Shown here: piece after piece, positions 11,027 to 25,667 of the stretch
Position numbering within the stretch: position 1 is the first letter of the stretch
Layout: every line of letters starts with the position of its first letter
Assembly (NCBI GenBank): GCA_902616905.1
Contig: CACMUP010000011.1
Location: 1 to 48,334 of the forward strand
DNA from: an uncultured Bacteroidota bacterium
Lineage (GTDB): Bacteria; Bacteroidota; Bacteroidia; Flavobacteriales; Flavobacteriaceae
Direction of reading: 5' to 3'
DNA length: 48,334 bases
Translations under genes and position numbers: made by a program
Notes under the pieces: generated by a model
The model's database searches: none
What the model saw: only the letters and a program-made list of their open reading frames with translations
Told to the model about the DNA's origin: nothing

Positions 11027-11290
11027 AGAATATTAATTAACCTATCATATTTTTTCAAAAAATAAATAACTAAAAACACTGACTATTCTACTATTTTTTA
11101 ATTTCAATTTTATTGTTTAAAATTTCATCGCTTTAAGAAACAGTCTTATAAAAATATCTTTCTTATTTGTTCAATTCATACAAATTTTAAATGACTATGA
11201 AAATCGCATTTTATTATTAAATATAAATAAGTGTAAAAAAGAGGATATGTCTTATATTAGTATAAGTTAGTAGAATTAACAAATTATGAA

Positions 11291-14080
11291 ATGCGTAAAT
11301 TAATCAATTATATTTTGATTATATTTTTTTTTAATTATGTAGGGAATTCACAAATACCACTTCCTGAGCACCCTCGCCCAGATTTTAATCGATCGACTTG
11401 GAAAAATCTTAATGGTATTTGGGAATTTAAATTTGATCCAAAAAATATAGGTTTGATTGAAAACTGGTATTTAGGTAAAACAAAATTTGACAAAAAAATA
11501 GTTGTACCTTTTCCATGGGGATCAAAATTATCTAAAGTTAATGATGAGTCTAACATAGCCTGGTATTCACGAATCATAAATATTCCTTCAGAATGGAAGA
11601 CAAAAAAAACCTTTATTACCATTGGTGCTTCAGATTGGGAAACAACAGTATGGTTAGACGGTAAATTAATTGGTAAGCATCAAGGCGGGTATGTGCCTTT
11701 TTCTTTTGATTTATCTTCACACCTAAAATATGATTTAAACCAAAAACTAATAATAAGGGTTGATGATGATGCTGGCGATCCAAAAAAATTTAAAAGAGGT
11801 CATGCTCTTTATGGCAAACAAGGTTATGGAAATGCGAGAGGAATTTGGCAAACAGTTTATCTAGAATCTAGAGGGGAGAATTTTCTTGAAGCAATACATT
11901 TTACTCCAGATATAGATAACAGAATAATAAATGTTTCAACTTATTTGAAAAATGATTCCAAAAATGAATTACCACTGTCATTAAAAATTAAAACTGAAAA
12001 TGGTTTTATAAATCATAAAATCACAGTAAAACCTGGTCAACAAAAAAGAAATTTTGATATAGAAATTCCAAATATGAGATTATGGTCTTTAGTAGACCCG
12101 TTTCTATACGAAGTTGAAGTGTCATTTGAGAATGATGTAGTTCATTCTTATTTTGGAATGCGTAAAATATCTACTAAAATTCTACCAGGAACTGACTATC
12201 CTTATGTTGCTTTAAACAATAAACCAATTTATCTCCAACTTGCACTTGACCAGTCCTATCACCCCCATGGATATTATACATTCCCAGATGACAATTTCAT
12301 TAAGGAGGAAATTTTAAGAACTAAGTCTATTGGTTTAAATGGAATTAGGGTTCATATTAAAGTTGAGGTGCCTAGAAAATTATATTGGGCAGATAAATTA
12401 GGTCTTTTAATTGTTGAGGACTTACCTAATTCATGGGGTGAACCAAATAAATTAATGAAAGCTGAGTCTGAATATACACTTAAGGAAATGATTAAAAGGG
12501 ATTACAATCACCCTTCTATTTTTTCATGGGTTCTATTTAATGAACAATGGGGTCTTTCAACTAAAAATGATCCTGAAGATAATAAAGAGAAAAGAAATGA
12601 GATACTTCCAGAAACATATCATTGGATAACATCAATGTATTATTTAGCAAAATCTCTTGATACATCCAGATTAATCGAGGATAACTCTTTGTGTTGTGGT
12701 GGTGTTCACACTGCTACTGATTTAAATTCGTGGCATGTTTATCTTCCTGGGTATGAATGGGAAAATTATCTTAAAGATCAAACAGAAAAAAATTTTAAAG
12801 GAGGGAATCATTTATACTACAAAGGTTTTAAACAAGAAAATCAACCATTTTTAAATTCAGAGTCTGGTAATGTTTGGGGTTATAAAGGAAGTACTGGTGA
12901 TATTGATTGGAGCTATGATTATCATAGAATGATTAACAGTTTCAGAAAATTTCCAGAGGTTGCTGGCTGGTTATATACAGAACATCATGATGTAATTAAT
13001 GAGTGGAATGGTTACTGGAAATTTGATAGATCTGAAAAGTATACAGGGTTAAGTGAAATTTTTGGGGGCATGACCATAAATGATTTTCATTCACCAATTT
13101 ATCTTTCAACAGGTGTTGAAATTTGCCGATCTGTAAAAAATAATGAAAAAGTAAAAATTCCCTTATTTATATCTTCAATGACGAATAAAAAATATGGAAA
13201 AGAACTATTACTTGATTACAAATTAATACATATGAATTACATAGCAGAAGAGTCTCTTGTCCACTCAAGTCAAATTAAGATTGAATACAAACCTTGGATA
13301 CAAAAAAGTCTTATGCCAATAGATTTAACAATGGCAAACGTAAGCGGTCTTTCGAAATTAATACTTACACTTAAAACTCTTGATGGTAAAATATTACACA
13401 GAAATTTTATGCATTTTGAGGTAAAATCAGAAAAAAAAATTAAAGGTATAAAAGTGATTGATCTTCCTGTAATATCACTTTCAAATTCAAGTTGGACAAA
13501 AAAAATGTGGCAGATATTTGATGGAAAAAAAATAAATGGAACTGGAAGTGGTTTTTTCGAATATGAGTTTGAAATTCCCGACGAAATAAAAAAGCAAAAA
13601 TTTAAAAAGGTTTTTTTTATTTTAGAGGCATCAGCTAAGGAGCTTTTTGAAAAAGATAGAGAAGACAATTATTATATTGACGCTGGTATTGATTTTATGA
13701 AAGGGTCAAAACTTAGTCCAAGTATAAATCCGAACTCTTACCCAATGACTGATACAAAATTTTATCAGTCTAAAATTGATATTTCAGTTAATGGAGAAGT
13801 GAAAAAAAGAATTACTCTAAAAGATGATCCTGCTGATCATAGAGGAATACTGTCTTGGCATAATCAAAAAAAATCTATTGAGGGACCTCCTTCCTTAAAT
13901 GAAGCTGGTTCTTATGGTTATTTAATTAAAGTACCGATTTCTAAACAGGAATTAGAAAATTCAAAAAGCCAAGGAATAATAAAATTAAAATTACAAACTA
14001 AAGGGGAGGGAGGTATTGCAATTTATGGAGAATCATTTGGAAGATATCCTTTAAATCCTAGTTTGGTATTCATAAAATAA
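11291..14080 (+). CDS. Glycoside hydrolase family 2 protein (beta-galactosidase/beta-glucuronidase type), exported
   Basis: This is a retaining glycosidase of clan GH-A, 929 residues. A signal peptide (about residues 1-21, ending GNSQ) indicates export to the periplasm. The order is a sugar-binding jelly roll (about 30-195, opening with the typical RPDFNRSTWKNLNGIWEFKF), an immunoglobulin-like domain (about 195-295) and a TIM barrel (about 300-610). The acid/base E418 lies in LFNEQWG and the nucleophile E524 in NSESGNVWG. About 300 further residues form extra beta domains of unknown role. The substrate cannot be read from the sequence; beta-galactoside and beta-glucuronide are both possible. 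It is followed after 10 bases by galM. The pair interrupts the oxidase cluster. No SusC/SusD, sugar transporter or regulator is adjacent. Confidence 0.9.
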   Translation: MRKLINYILIIFFFNYVGNSQIPLPEHPRPDFNRSTWKNLNGIWEFKFDPKNIGLIENWYLGKTKFDKKIVVPFPWGSKLSKVNDESNIAWYSRIINIPSEWKTKKTFITIGASDWETTVWLDGKLIGKHQGGYVPFSFDLSSHLKYDLNQKLIIRVDDDAGDPKKFKRGHALYGKQGYGNARGIWQTVYLESRGENFLEAIHFTPDIDNRIINVSTYLKNDSKNELPLSLKIKTENGFINHKITVKPGQQKRNFDIEIPNMRLWSLVDPFLYEVEVSFENDVVHSYFGMRKISTKILPGTDYPYVALNNKPIYLQLALDQSYHPHGYYTFPDDNFIKEEILRTKSIGLNGIRVHIKVEVPRKLYWADKLGLLIVEDLPNSWGEPNKLMKAESEYTLKEMIKRDYNHPSIFSWVLFNEQWGLSTKNDPEDNKEKRNEILPETYHWITSMYYLAKSLDTSRLIEDNSLCCGGVHTATDLNSWHVYLPGYEWENYLKDQTEKNFKGGNHLYYKGFKQENQPFLNSESGNVWGYKGSTGDIDWSYDYHRMINSFRKFPEVAGWLYTEHHDVINEWNGYWKFDRSEKYTGLSEIFGGMTINDFHSPIYLSTGVEICRSVKNNEKVKIPLFISSMTNKKYGKELLLDYKLIHMNYIAEESLVHSSQIKIEYKPWIQKSLMPIDLTMANVSGLSKLILTLKTLDGKILHRNFMHFEVKSEKKIKGIKVIDLPVISLSNSSWTKKMWQIFDGKKINGTGSGFFEYEFEIPDEIKKQKFKKVFFILEASAKELFEKDREDNYYIDAGIDFMKGSKLSPSINPNSYPMTDTKFYQSKIDISVNGEVKKRITLKDDPADHRGILSWHNQKKSIEGPPSLNEAGSYGYLIKVPISKQELENSKSQGIIKLKLQTKGEGGIAIYGESFGRYPLNPSLVFIK

Positions 14081-14090
14081 AAAGAAGAAA

Positions 14091-15254
14091 ATGAATATTT
14101 TTAAAATTATTAAATCAATAAGAGTTTTATTATTCATTCTTCTAACAATAAATTTTTCTTGTAAGAAATTTATTAAAAACCGTGATTTAGAGTTGACGTA
14201 TATAGACAAGAAATTTTTTGGTAAAACTAAGAATGGCCAAGATGTTTTTTTATTTGAAATGAAAAATAAAAAAGGAATGGTCATAAAAATAATTACATAC
14301 GGGGGGATCATTACTTCCTGGAAAGTAAAAAACAGAAAAAATCATTTTGAGGATATAGTTTTAGGCTATAAAACTTTATTAGAATATGAAAATAAGAGTC
14401 CTTATTTTGGAGCGATAATTGGACGATACGGAAATCGTATTGCGGAAGGAAAATTCTCATTAGATGGTAAAGAATATAACTTGGAAACTAATAATTATCC
14501 AAATCACTTACATGGAGGGACTAAAGGTTTTGACAAGGTCGTATGGCAAGCAAGAGAAATTTCAAATGACTCATCCTCTTCGATAGAACTAAGTTATTTA
14601 AGCAGAGATGGAGATCAAGGTTATCCTGGAAATCTTAAAGTAAAAGTTATTTATACACTAAACAATAATAATGAATTGCTAGTTGAATATTTTGCTGAAA
14701 CAGATAAAAGTACGATAGTAAATTTAACTCAGCATTCATATTTTAATCTTTCTGGAAATTTCCAAAAAGATATATTGGATCATAAATTGGTTATAAATGC
14801 AGATAATTTTCTTCCGGTGGATTCTACTCTAATTCCTACTGGAGAAATAAGAAAAGTAAATACAACCCCTTTTGATTTTAGGATACCAAAAAAAATAGGA
14901 CATGATATCAATGAAAAAAACCAACAGTTAAAAAATGGAATTGGATATGATCATTGTTGGGTAGTAAATTCAAATGAAAAAGATTTCAGATTTGTTGCAT
15001 CCGCATATGAAGAAAATTCGGGAAGACTTCTAGAAATTTTTTCTACACAACCAGGGATTCAGTTTTATTCAGGTAATTTTTTAGATGGAACACTTCCAAC
15101 TAAGACAAAAGGATTTTATAAAAAAAGAACAGGCTTTTGTCTAGAAACACAACATTTTCCAGATTCTCCAAACCAACTCAATTTCCCAGATGTTAAACTC
15201 AAACCTGGGGAAATTTATTTTTCAAAAACTAAATTTAGATTATCTGTAAAGTAA
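14091..15254 (+). CDS. galM: Aldose 1-epimerase, lipoprotein
   Basis: Mutarotase interconverts alpha and beta anomers of hexoses such as galactose and glucose. The 387 residues begin with a hydrophobic signal and a lipobox INFSC (C24 lipidated), so it is probably anchored to a periplasmic or outer-membrane face, as is common for Bacteroidota GalM. Catalytic-site blocks are visible: GRYGNRIAEGKF, NHLHGGTKGFDK, the His of LTQHSYFNLSG and YDHCWVV. The catalytic Glu lies in GFCLETQHFPDSPNQ. It sits 10 bases downstream of the GH2 gene; the epimerase would equilibrate the sugar anomer released by the glycosidase. Confidence in the family is high; sugar specificity is unknown. Confidence 0.93.
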   Translation: MNIFKIIKSIRVLLFILLTINFSCKKFIKNRDLELTYIDKKFFGKTKNGQDVFLFEMKNKKGMVIKIITYGGIITSWKVKNRKNHFEDIVLGYKTLLEYENKSPYFGAIIGRYGNRIAEGKFSLDGKEYNLETNNYPNHLHGGTKGFDKVVWQAREISNDSSSSIELSYLSRDGDQGYPGNLKVKVIYTLNNNNELLVEYFAETDKSTIVNLTQHSYFNLSGNFQKDILDHKLVINADNFLPVDSTLIPTGEIRKVNTTPFDFRIPKKIGHDINEKNQQLKNGIGYDHCWVVNSNEKDFRFVASAYEENSGRLLEIFSTQPGIQFYSGNFLDGTLPTKTKGFYKKRTGFCLETQHFPDSPNQLNFPDVKLKPGEIYFSKTKFRLSVK

Positions 15255-21727: not shown

Positions 21728-22867
21728 ATGAAAATTTTAAAATACTCAGCAATATCACTTTTAGTTATTGGTGCACTTTTTGCAGCAGCCTATTTTATAA
21801 AAACAAATGATAAATCTGTAATTGAATATGATACCCAAAAAACGTTAATAACTTCTATTGAGAAAAAAACAGTAGTAACAGGAAAAGTTATTCCTGAAGA
21901 TGAAGTAGAAATTAAACCGCAAATCCAGGGAATTATTGACGCAATTTTTGTTGAAGAAGGAGATTTGGTGAAAACAGGAGATTTACTTGCTAAAATAAAG
22001 GTTGTACCAAATGAGCAAAATTTAAATAGTGCAGAAGGCAGGTTAGCAAATTCTAGAATTGTACTTAAAAATGCACAAATAGAATTCAATAGAAATAAAG
22101 ACCTGTATGAAAAAGGAATTATTTCAAAACAAGATTATGACAATGTACAATTGCGTTACAATCAGTCAAAATTAGATGTATCAAATGCTATTTCTGACTT
22201 ACAAATAATTAGGTCAGGATCAAAAGGAGGAGCTGCGTCCGCAAATACTAATATAAGAGCTACGGTACCAGGAACTGTTTTAGAAATTCCTGTAGAAGAA
22301 GGATTTCAAGTTATAGCTAGTAATAGTTTTAATGCAGGAACTACAATTGCAACTATTGCAGATTTAAACAAGATGATTTTTGAGGGTAAAGTTGATGAAG
22401 CAGAAGTAGGAAAACTTAAGGTTGGTATGCCTTTAGAAGTAAGTCTTGGTGCCATTGAAGATCAAGCATTACAAGCAAAGTTGAAATTTATTGCTCCAAA
22501 AGGAAATGAGGAACAAGGAGCTGTTCAATTTAAAATAGAGGCTGATTTATATTTAAATGATTCAATTTTTGTTAGGGCAGGATATAGTGCAAACGCATCA
22601 CTTGTTTTGGAACGTAAGGATAGTGTAATGGCAATGTCTGAATCTTTACTTCAATTTGATCGTAAAACTGAAGAACCATTCGTTGAAATTGAAATGGAGG
22701 ATCAAAAATTTGAAAGAAGAGATGTCGAAATAGGTATATCTGATGGAGTAAATGTTGAAATTATCTCTGGAGTTTCTGAAAATGAAAAAATCAAAGTATG
22801 GAATAAAACTGAGCCCACTAAAAAGGGTGATGACAGATCATCAACTGAAAATGAGATAATAGATTAA
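21728..22867 (+). CDS. Periplasmic adaptor (MacA/HlyD-type membrane fusion protein)
   Basis: The adaptor bridges the ABC permeases and the TolC channel. The 379 residues begin with a single anchor (about 5-23). A beta-barrel/lipoyl half (VEIKPQIQGIIDAIFVEEGD, about 55-90) leads to an alpha-helical hairpin (about 95-165). The hairpin carries the TolC-contact pattern DLYEKGIISKQDYDN at its tip. The second lipoyl half (about 170-200), barrel (about 205-285) and a membrane-proximal domain follow. The helical hairpin is of MacA length. It sits between permease 2 and tolC, completing a tripartite exporter. Confidence 0.92.
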   Translation: MKILKYSAISLLVIGALFAAAYFIKTNDKSVIEYDTQKTLITSIEKKTVVTGKVIPEDEVEIKPQIQGIIDAIFVEEGDLVKTGDLLAKIKVVPNEQNLNSAEGRLANSRIVLKNAQIEFNRNKDLYEKGIISKQDYDNVQLRYNQSKLDVSNAISDLQIIRSGSKGGAASANTNIRATVPGTVLEIPVEEGFQVIASNSFNAGTTIATIADLNKMIFEGKVDEAEVGKLKVGMPLEVSLGAIEDQALQAKLKFIAPKGNEEQGAVQFKIEADLYLNDSIFVRAGYSANASLVLERKDSVMAMSESLLQFDRKTEEPFVEIEMEDQKFERRDVEIGISDGVNVEIISGVSENEKIKVWNKTEPTKKGDDRSSTENEIID

Positions 22868-22880
22868 CTTAATTATTTAA

Positions 22881-24302
22881 ATGATTATGAATAAAGTTAC
22901 AAGCTTAATTTTTTGCTTTTTATCGTTTACAATTAATGCACAATTAAAAAAATATACTTTATTAGAATGTGTAAATATTGCGCTTGAAAAGAATATCAAT
23001 ATCCAACAATCTGAATTTGATTTAGAGGGAGCTGATATAGATAGAGGTGATGCAATTGGAAATTTTTTACCAAGAATAAATGCACAATCTCAACATATAT
23101 GGAATAATGGTTTAAGTCAAAACATAACCAATGGATTAATTGAAAACTTAACAACACAATTTTCTTCTTTTGGTGGAAATTTAGGAGTAACCTTATTTAG
23201 CGGTAAACAAAATATTAATCAGTTAGCAAAAGCTAATCTTAACATTATATCCAGACAATATCAGCTTGAGGATATGAAAGATGATATAAGTCTATTTGTT
23301 GCGAATTCATACTTACAAGTTATGTTTAACAAAGAATTGGAACAGGTGCAGCGTTATCAACTTGAGATAGCTAAACAAGAATTAGAAAGAACACAACTTA
23401 GAATTTCAGCTGGAGTTCAGACTGAAGCAGAAATATTCGAAATTGAAGCAAATTTAGCTTCTCAAGAACAAGCTTTAGTTCAATCTGAAAATGCAACACG
23501 TCTTTCTTTGATTAGCCTCGCTCAATCACTTTTAATAACTGATTACGAAAACTTTGATATAGCTGATATAAATTTTGATGTTCCACTTTCTCAGATTCTT
23601 ATGGAAAAGCCCAAAAAAATATTTGAAAAATCACTAACCTTAAGAAATGATATCAAAGTTGCAGCAACCAATATTGAGCTTGCGAAAACTGATATAGATT
23701 TAGCTAAAGGAGCATTATTACCAACCCTTTCTGCATTTTATAATTATAATACAAGGATTTCCTACAGTGATAGGTTTATTGAAACAGGAAATTTCATTGA
23801 AACACCAATTGGTGTTGTAAAAGAAAACGGATCACTCGTAGTTTCTCAATTTCCTGAAAGAGCTATAACCGATCCTCTCTCTTTTGGTGATCAATTCAGA
23901 CAAAATGATGGACATAGTTATGGGCTTGCATTGAACATTCCAATATTTAATGGTCTTTCTATTAAAAATAACATTAAAAGAAGAAAACTTAATTTGAAAA
24001 GATCAGAAACTCAATTTGAACAAACAAAATTAGATTTAGAAAATACTATCAATCAAGCATATAATAATGCTGAAGGGGCTTTTAAGTTTTACGAAGCTTC
24101 AGAAAAAACACTAAAAGCAAGAAAGGAGGCTTATTTCATAGCTGAAAAGCAATTTGAGGCAGGAGTTTTGAACTCCTATGATTTTATACAGATTAAACAA
24201 AGATACGATATTGCAGCTTCTGATAATGTTAGGGCTAAGTACGACTATATTTTTAAATTGAAAGTATTGGAGTTTTATTTTGGTGTTGAAATTGCTATTT
24301 AA
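22881..24302 (+). CDS. TolC family outer-membrane efflux protein
   Basis: This is the outer-membrane/periplasmic exit duct of the tripartite exporter, 473 residues. It has a signal peptide (about 1-20, ending NAQ) and two structural repeats of long amphipathic coiled coils. Repeat one covers about 30-225 and repeat two about 245-465. The LTLRNDIKVAATNIELAKTD segment and GLALNIPIFNGLSIKNNIKR are typical of the TolC/OEP family, the latter near a beta strand. GVLNSYDFIQIKQRY matches the second-repeat motif. ATG 22881 or ATG 22887 could be the start; both give a good signal. It is the last gene of the exporter operon, and no clear terminator follows. Confidence 0.93.
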   Translation: MIMNKVTSLIFCFLSFTINAQLKKYTLLECVNIALEKNINIQQSEFDLEGADIDRGDAIGNFLPRINAQSQHIWNNGLSQNITNGLIENLTTQFSSFGGNLGVTLFSGKQNINQLAKANLNIISRQYQLEDMKDDISLFVANSYLQVMFNKELEQVQRYQLEIAKQELERTQLRISAGVQTEAEIFEIEANLASQEQALVQSENATRLSLISLAQSLLITDYENFDIADINFDVPLSQILMEKPKKIFEKSLTLRNDIKVAATNIELAKTDIDLAKGALLPTLSAFYNYNTRISYSDRFIETGNFIETPIGVVKENGSLVVSQFPERAITDPLSFGDQFRQNDGHSYGLALNIPIFNGLSIKNNIKRRKLNLKRSETQFEQTKLDLENTINQAYNNAEGAFKFYEASEKTLKARKEAYFIAEKQFEAGVLNSYDFIQIKQRYDIAASDNVRAKYDYIFKLKVLEFYFGVEIAI

Positions 24303-24355
24303 TAATAATAATGATTACAATTTGCTTTTTTTATCTTTAATAAAATAATTATAAA

Positions 24356-24976
24356 ATGGAAGTATGTAAAACTAATGCCTATGAAAATAAGCATAAAAAA
24401 ATTCCAGGAAATCCTTCAATTGCAAAAAGTAGTTCAATTAAATTAAACACAAGAAAAAATAATGAATCTTTAAGAGTACTTAATGATGAACAGTTGAAAT
24501 TTTGGGTTTATAAAGGATATATAGTAATTAAAAATGCGATACCTAAAGGACAAGCAAAATCAACTGCAAATTTTCTTTGGGAAAGAATAATTCTCATTTC
24601 GAGTGAGTGTAGTTATATCGTTCCGTCTGACATGATTTTCTACAGTGATACAAAGTCAGCAATTCATGCTGTTTCAAGAGTAATATCAAATATGACAAAA
24701 GTAATTTATGTAACATCAAACGTAATAGTACCTGGATCAACTTTAAGTAAGGGAGCAAAAAAAATTATCAAAGAAAAAGCAAAATATAAAAATATAATTA
24801 TTAGAGAAGTTAAAACTAATCTCTTTAAAACTGAAAGACAAAACTCTTTGCTTGAAAATTTCGCCGCGACTGAAGAGATGGCAAATACAATTTCTTACCC
24901 ATGTAGCCCACATTACTTAGAAACAAATGGAAGTGCTATTAAATTTGACGGTGTAAGCTCAGGAGGTATTTTTTAA
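24356..24976 (+). CDS. Chimeric ORF: PhyH-like N-terminus fused to C-terminal half of an SDR (probable gene remnant)
   Basis: This open frame of 206 residues joins parts of two unrelated enzymes. Residues about 1-76 resemble the N-terminus of phytanoyl-CoA dioxygenase (PhyH)-like proteins, with SLRVLNDEQLKFWVYKGY and IVIKNAIPKGQ, then FLWE. No iron-binding HxD...H follows. From about residue 77 it reads as the second half of a short-chain dehydrogenase: IILISSE with S83, Y96-SDT-K100, NVIVPGSTLSKGAKKI, LLENFAATEEMANTISYPCSP and NGSAIKFDG. The NAD-binding TGxxxGIG half is missing. The junction is near 24584. A deletion between neighbouring phyH and SDR genes is the simplest origin. No activity is expected; expression is unknown. 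It lies between tolC and tsaB. Confidence 0.7.
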   Translation: MEVCKTNAYENKHKKIPGNPSIAKSSSIKLNTRKNNESLRVLNDEQLKFWVYKGYIVIKNAIPKGQAKSTANFLWERIILISSECSYIVPSDMIFYSDTKSAIHAVSRVISNMTKVIYVTSNVIVPGSTLSKGAKKIIKEKAKYKNIIIREVKTNLFKTERQNSLLENFAATEEMANTISYPCSPHYLETNGSAIKFDGVSSGGIF

Positions 24977-24983
24977 TTATTTA

Positions 24984-25667
24984 ATGGCCTATATACTTCA
25001 TATCGAGACATCAACAAAACAATGTTCTGTTGCAATAGGTTATAAGGGTAAATGTATATCAGAGAAAAAACTATTATCAGAACATTATAGTCATGAAGAG
25101 AAACTTCATGTTTTTATACAAGAAGCTTTACAAGAAGTCAATCTAAATATTTCTGAATTAGGAGCGGTTTCAGTAAGTAAAGGTCCTGGATCATTTACAG
25201 GACTCCGTATAGGTGTTGCCACTGCAAAAGGAATTTGTTATGCACTTGATTTACCGTTAATAGCTATTGATACTCTTAAATTGATGATCCAACCATATTT
25301 AAAAAAAAAAGATATTGATTTTCTAATTCCAATGCTGGATGCAAGAAGAATGGAGGTATATACAGCAATTTATGACAACTACGAAAATTGTGTTCAACAA
25401 ATAAAAGCACAAGTACTTACTGAAAATAGCTTTCATAAAGTTGTTGGTGATAGAAACTGTTTAATCATAGGAAATGGGGCGGTAAAATTCCAAAATATTA
25501 AACCTAAAATAAAGGCTTATTTTTCTGAATATATTTATTATCCTTCAGCAAAGGATATGTGTTTGTTGTCATGGAAACATAAATTAAACAGAAATTATCA
25601 AGATATAAATACATTTGAACCGTATTATTTAAAGGATTTTCAAGCAACACTTCCTAAAAACAGTTAA
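24984..25667 (+). CDS. tsaB: tRNA threonylcarbamoyladenosine biosynthesis protein TsaB
   Basis: TsaB is the non-catalytic partner of TsaD in making the t6A37 modification on ANN-decoding tRNAs. The 227 residues show the ASKHA-type fold: the N-terminal YILHIETSTKQCSVAIG phosphate-loop-like segment and the family signature VSKGPGSFTGLRIGVATAKG (about 63-82). PMLDARRMEVYTAIYD, also diagnostic, follows. Length fits the family (about 220-230). It starts 7 bases after the chimeric ORF and converges with nfu, whose stop is 19 bases away. No obvious terminator separates the two convergent genes. Confidence 0.95.
   Translation: MAYILHIETSTKQCSVAIGYKGKCISEKKLLSEHYSHEEKLHVFIQEALQEVNLNISELGAVSVSKGPGSFTGLRIGVATAKGICYALDLPLIAIDTLKLMIQPYLKKKDIDFLIPMLDARRMEVYTAIYDNYENCVQQIKAQVLTENSFHKVVGDRNCLIIGNGAVKFQNIKPKIKAYFSEYIYYPSAKDMCLLSWKHKLNRNYQDINTFEPYYLKDFQATLPKNS

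Follow-up and report, generated by a model that had tools for sequence, protein, structure and literature searches.

A probable deletion-fusion remnant of a phyH-SDR gene pair upstream of tsaB in an uncultured Flavobacteriaceae bacterium

Deletion-fusion (chimeric) pseudogenes and gene remnants are a known kind of locus in bacteria. The iron site of PhyH proteins is formed by an HxD...H motif, while classical short-chain dehydrogenases (SDRs) carry a Gly-rich cofactor motif, an NNxG motif and the residues Ser-Tyr-Lys, which make up a tetrad with Asn. Among the papers listed by literature searches, none dealt with this phyH-SDR gene pair or its fusion.

Here we describe an ORF composed of parts of two such genes. 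It is located in a 48,334-nucleotide stretch of DNA (hereafter the window) from an uncultured Bacteroidota bacterium of the family Flavobacteriaceae (contig CACMUP010000011.1). The genome of origin (G000; assembly GCA_902616905.1) is a fragmented draft of 54 contigs, 68% complete, and a sister genome (G019) served as the main reference. An open frame of 206 codons had been predicted from the sequence, and it is present as claimed. Features of the locus are summarized in Table 1. The gene downstream of the ORF is one that we take to be tsaB, presumably acting in tRNA t6A synthesis.

Table 1. Predicted features of the locus between tolC and tsaB (window coordinates)
Feature	Position	Strand	Basis
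Fused ORF, 206 aa plus stop, ATG start	24356..24976	+	ORF call
Predicted 5' remnant of phyH-family (PF05721) gene, codons 1-76 of about 323	24356..24583	+	80% aa identity to G019
Predicted deletion junction, TTGGG common to both parents	24577..24583	+	Comparison with G019
Predicted 3' remnant of SDR gene, last ~131 of 264 codons plus stop	24584..24976	+	73.5% aa identity to C-terminal half of G019 SDR; Pfam/NCBIfam/PDB
tolC-type outer membrane efflux gene, left landmark	22881..24302	+	PF02321; 97% identical in G019
Spacer between tolC and the ORF, 53 bp; tract TTACAATTTGC common to G019	24303..24355	+	
Spacer between fusion stop and tsaB start, 7 bp	24977..24983	+	
tsaB (presumed), right landmark	24984..25667	+	Pfam match PF00814 (TsaD)

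Composition and origin of the fused ORF

The original prediction had assigned the second part of the ORF to the SDRs, and this assignment stands: from about residue 76 onwards the protein matches SDR profiles, albeit below their cut-offs, as well as solved SDRs. Pfam adh_short_C2 aligned with residues 76-199 (E 3.5e-4, 20.6 bits, cut-off 27) and adh_short scored 16.6 bits (cut-off 26.6), so that the fused ORF reaches neither of the two curated Pfam cut-offs. NCBIfam TIGR01963 matched residues 56-199 (E 4.2e-8) with 32.7 bits, far below its cut-off of 307. The nearest solved SDRs in the PDB are 8g9m (E 7e-17) and 3t4x (E 1.5e-16).

The likeness of the N-terminal part to PhyH, originally placed at about residues 38-76 only, is borne out through the G019 parent and extends over residues 1-76. 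A direct profile check was unsuccessful: no Pfam model matched residues 1-80 alone at E<=10, the PhyH profile (PF05721) matched neither this segment nor the whole fused ORF, and a single NCBIfam match of residues 1-80 (E 0.0037, 15.3 bits vs a cut-off of 1243) was rejected as evidently spurious; by the criterion set with the original prediction, this outcome would speak against PhyH. However, residues 1-76 share 80% identity with codons 1-76 of a 323-aa ORF of G019, and since the latter passes the Pfam cut-off for PhyH (33.7 bits vs 22, E 5.9e-8), we regard them as PhyH-derived.

The gene order in G019 is tolC - phyH (323 aa) - 6 bp - SDR (264 aa) - 7 bp - tsaB, and that in the window is tolC - fused ORF - 7 bp - tsaB. 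The window is exactly 1,152 bp shorter (384 codons, in frame), and both ORF halves align to their G019 parents without gaps; taking 1,152 bp out of the G019 arrangement yields that of the window, in agreement with the predicted in-frame deletion between two neighbouring genes. At the junction, the blastn blocks that the window shares with the G019 contig overlap by 7 bp, which places the breakpoint slightly to the left of the predicted one (about 24584). The junction displays a microhomology of 7 bp with one mismatch and the core TTGGG, and a TGG codon lies there in the same phase in both parents. Because the core spans this codon in equal phase in both genes, one short-homology deletion suffices for an in-frame join.

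These comparisons point to a single 1,152-bp deletion that fused the start of phyH to the end of the SDR gene. Occurring at TTGGG, by slippage or illegitimate recombination at the microhomology, it would have removed the last three quarters of phyH, the 6-bp spacer and the first half of the SDR gene. A false join across a 1,152-bp drop-out is conceivable in a draft assembly as fragmented as this one, but the junction lies within a 48-kb contig that is collinear with G019 on both sides, a false join falling exactly in frame on a shared motif would have to be coincidental, and an assembly error would not speed the evolution of both halves alone. Because both halves, unlike the flanking genes tested, are accelerated on the G000 lineage alone (see below), we consider an artefact highly improbable.

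Another difference between the two contigs lies at 11056-14094 of the window, a 3.0-kb stretch that is missing from the corresponding position of the G019 contig, although the two are otherwise collinear. The stretch contains a 929-aa ORF (11291-14080) with glycoside hydrolase family 2 domains, which appears to be an accessory gene gained or lost between the sister species.

Motifs of both enzyme families map to the deleted part of the G019 parents, in agreement with the predicted absence of the iron-binding and Rossmann halves. In the G019 PhyH protein the HxD...H residues occupy positions 161-163 and 244, and in the G019 SDR the motifs GSTSGIG (at 14) and NNVG (at 88) and the catalytic Asn113 are all located in the lost segment. 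The fusion retains Ser83, Tyr96 and Lys100, exactly where they had been predicted, and the parent's Asn113 is gone. Judging from the motifs lost, the fused product is probably dead as an enzyme; lacking the Fe/2-oxoglutarate site of PhyH and the NAD(P)-binding half of the SDR, it would be capable of neither reaction.

Among SDR columns that are invariant in the copies of 16 relatives, 6 of 39 are altered in the window (the junction codon, F80, G109, F156, R168 and G200). The same leave-one-out count gave 6/45 for G016 and 4/43 for G004, values near that of G000, and the altered columns are alone not extreme. For the fusion, AlphaFold2 arrived at no confident fold (mean pLDDT 41.3, pTM 0.28, 14-row alignment); for the whole G019 SDR it gave a pLDDT of 76.5 and a pTM of 0.78 with an 8-row alignment, a contrast that is a weak indication given alignments that differ in kind.

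On this evidence, we consider it probable that the ORF is a deletion-fusion gene remnant, enzymatically dead and decaying.

Distribution of the gene pair among relatives

In the genus set of 38 genomes, which counts G000 itself, both halves of the fusion are matched by 24 further genomes, 18 of these on one contig, while five match the phyH half only and eight neither half (E<=1e-8). Loci were fetched from 16 of the 18 one-contig genomes, and 15 of them contain an adjacent phyH-SDR pair between tolC and tsaB, which is the arrangement that had been anticipated. The distance between the SDR gene and tsaB is 7 bp in both the window and G019, and varies from 6 to 15 bp over the 15 loci that have the pair. 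The exception is G004 (locus L045), in which the pair is found elsewhere and a sodium:solute symporter gene separates phyH from the SDR gene. The phyH ORF of G003 (L047, 3812-4672) is 36 aa shorter than usual and holds undetermined bases; the cause is a gap in the assembly rather than another deletion.

A further 13 of 30 tsaB loci were inspected, picked for SDR absence or separated halves in the 38-genome search. In nine of them tolC is directly beside tsaB, some 70-210 bp apart, three have the order tolC - SDR - tsaB without phyH, and in the last one the SDR gene neighbours tsaB at a contig edge. Because relatives occur without the pair, or with the SDR gene only, at the tsaB site, the phyH-SDR pair is accessory and a site lacking it is tolerated. 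The two genes can also be separated: G021, G033 and G036 (loci L074, L070 and L078) carry only the SDR gene between tolC and tsaB and have phyH on another contig.

Apart from the window itself, no fused match was detected in the 38 genus genomes or in 397 genomes sampled evenly from a larger family-level group, G000 among them, with at most seven candidate places scored in each genome. Neither set yielded full-length homologues of this architecture, which according to the original prediction would make the fusion a genuine family, and a new protein family was rejected as far as searched.

In the rest of the G000 genome (68% complete) no further PhyH copy was found, with a query that lacked the start Met of minus-strand genes. 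The SDR query matched nine other places there with 24-34% identity, which appear to be other SDRs and no close copies. A phage or mobile origin gave no lead: only four of 50,697 phage records matched at E<=1, all with 28-32% identity and 61-72% query coverage, within query residues 51-199.

The company kept by phyH genes was examined in the best 80 of 575 loci from a scan with a PhyH alignment; an SDR relative with 40% identity or more is present in 26 of these 80, and 13 have the symporter gene inside the flanks examined. In G004 the phyH, sodium:solute symporter and SDR genes form a cluster (L045, 3954-7448) away from tolC-tsaB. Such gene company suggests a role in the uptake and oxidation of some substrate in Bacteroidota.

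Accelerated evolution and the open reading frame

Both halves of the fusion have changed faster in G000 than in its sister. Taking medians over 15 outgroups, G000 has 19 unique amino acid changes in the SDR half against 2 for G019, and 7 against 2 in the phyH half. The corresponding counts for five flanking genes were 5 to 2, 6 to 3, 9 to 5.5, 11.5 to 7 and 9 to 6 (14 outgroups), i.e. all five also have more unique changes in G000, albeit less lopsidedly, and the lineage is slightly faster throughout.

In the main test of branch omega, performed on 7 of 16 taxa, neutral branch lengths were fixed from tsaB, a nifU-like gene and gca, because free-length models (16 and 9 taxa) gave poorly determined foreground lengths. 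The tolC and HlyD-like genes were first omitted from the calibration on account of their lower synonymous distances (0.30 and 0.21 vs 0.33-0.41). G004 remained outside all codon models, as its pair lies elsewhere and the flanking genes are missing from the fetched stretch.

With this three-gene calibration, omega on the G000 branch was 0.379 for the SDR half (background 0.086, 2dlnL 37.8) and 0.266 for the phyH half (background 0.078, 2dlnL 11.2). No significant change on the same branch was observed for tsaB, nifU-like and gca (0.119/0.107, 0.135/0.103 and 0.092/0.064, respectively). Among the other six terminal branches, each tested in turn, none was significantly raised, the next largest change being a decrease in G015 (4.6). 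Calibration with all five genes yielded 0.385/0.073 (2dlnL 46) for SDR and 0.281/0.069 (2dlnL 14) for phyH, and calibration with tolC and HlyD-like alone gave 0.325 and 0.256 (2dlnL 61 and 19); the choice of calibration genes changes nothing of substance. The signals were weaker with free branch lengths (2dlnL for SDR and phyH 7.6 and 0.6 with 9 taxa, 12.2 and 1.4 with 16 taxa), and the strong ones depend on neutral lengths fixed from the flanking genes. The acceleration of both halves on the G000 lineage alone argues for loss of enzyme function. This omega averages in the time before the deletion, and relaxation before or after the event fits equally.

Synonymous divergence from G019 is uneven around the fusion. 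It is lowest in the HlyD-like and tolC genes (window 21728-24302; dS 0.21 and 0.30), reaches 0.33-0.41 in the three genes tested on the other side, and is highest in the remnant halves themselves (0.45 and 0.65), a pattern that may reflect rate differences or past recombination.

In the alignment to G019, no later stops or indels were found within the 206 codons. About 7% of random single changes in the fused ORF create a stop, and the simulated probability of encountering none is 0.14, 0.06 and 0.03 for 30, 40 and 50 neutral changes, respectively. A neutral model with stops allowed fitted best with 20-25% of the branch after the deletion, equivalent to some 36-45 neutral changes. Its lnL (about -3093.8) was about 3 units worse than that of relaxed coding (-3090.6), or 3.4 units worse under the five-gene calibration, and a model barring stops but leaving amino acids free reached -3090.1. 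An added indel term, set from noncoding window/G019 alignment in which 306 substitutions accompany 16 gap openings, lowered the neutral model to about -3095.7 at best, about 5 units below relaxed coding. Other calibrations preserved the order of the three models.

Pure neutral decay is therefore moderately disfavoured, in a model-dependent way, and it is more likely than not that the open frame is under some constraint. Under the neutral model, roughly 20-25% of the time since the G019 split would have followed the deletion, unless relaxation came earlier; the "recent scar", one of the two options originally proposed, needs this qualification. Three readings remain that fit the data.

In the first, constraint on the pair as a whole had begun to weaken before the deletion, which is very recent. 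A uniform relaxed omega over the entire branch fits as well as any alternative (-3090.6), and a very recent event accounts for the missing stops and indels. However, two steps are required, and one genome cannot tell the readings apart. We hold this order of events to be rather unlikely.

The second reading concerns tsaB: the amino acids of the fused product would be irrelevant, and the frame, open to 7 bp before tsaB, would be kept for expression of that gene. The stop-forbidden model with free amino acids fits as well as any, and the spacing between the SDR gene and tsaB is short in every locus with the pair. In a study of E. coli and Haloferax gene pairs, termination-reinitiation is described as falling steeply with distance and as almost abolished at about 20 nt (PMC10666635), and work on E. 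coli operon gene deletions reports lowering of the directly downstream gene, dependent on intergenic distance (PMC8547470); both effects would favour a translated leader. The former study, however, also holds genes spaced at about +10 nt to be weakly coupled or, more likely, independently initiated (PMC10666635). Moreover, tsaB needs no upstream coupled ORF in the nine pairless genomes, because roughly 70-210 bp separate it from tolC there, and chance is not strongly rejected as the cause of the open frame. A leader of this kind is likewise rather unlikely, and the specific proposal that the remnant is a translational conduit, its frame selected so that ribosomes reach a stop 7 bp before the essential tRNA-modification gene tsaB, seems to us quite unlikely.

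In the third reading, the 206-aa protein or one of its halves has a selected function of its own. This would be consistent with the open, indel-free frame, the retention of Ser-Tyr-Lys and a joint branch omega of 0.34, well below 1 (the whole branch at omega 1 was worse by 23 lnL). However, that omega includes pre-deletion time, and a model barring stops with free amino acids over the last ~28% of the branch fits equally (-3090.1 vs -3090.6). Furthermore, neither active site is complete, SDR residues invariant in the relatives' copies are altered, the structure prediction suggests no confident fold, and the fusion was found in one genome only among the 38 of the genus and the 397 sampled from the family. 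Residual function of this kind, the "retained novel protein" of the original prediction, is very doubtful in our estimate.

We thus return to the fusion as a decaying remnant. Having lost much of its protein-level constraint, it would represent an intermediate on the way to losing an accessory gene pair, and its frame may still be open through modest luck, a recent deletion or weakly selected translation up to tsaB. The claim made is that of a remnant rather than a proven pseudogene, because there are no inactivating stops or frameshifts besides the deletion.

Significance and comparison with known systems

The fusion documents cleanly how an accessory enzyme pair can disappear in nature, with adjacent parents, pairless sites and a half-way fused stage all within one genus. 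It also illustrates an annotation hazard: weak similarity could label the ORF an SDR-family oxidoreductase despite the missing cofactor-binding half. If it were true that the frame is selected only for tsaB, the locus would be a measurable case of a dead gene kept translatable, and the open frame beside tsaB is the only part of the finding that deserves further test.

Compared with the PhyH family (PF05721), i.e. Fe(II)/2-oxoglutarate oxygenases, the first 76 residues of the fusion are orthologous to the PhyH-family protein of G019, but the HxD...H iron site and the remaining domain are lacking. The C-terminal half resembles that of classical SDRs (PF00106/PF13561; nearest solved 8g9m and 3t4x), including Ser-Tyr-Lys, and differs in the loss of the Rossmann glycine motif, NNVG and the catalytic Asn and in altered conserved glycines.

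The closest likeness in kind is to deletion-fusion pseudogenes, in which a deletion between short repeats joins neighbouring genes, both activities are lost and evolution is accelerated. The locus shows adjacent parents in relatives, a single deletion with junction homology and relaxed constraint; extra stops or frameshifts number 0 in 206 codons. It differs from that kind in a frame that is open over its full length, a deletion that is an exact multiple of three and the lack of any later indel. The fusion seems to be a case of ordinary gene loss whose record is unusually clean.
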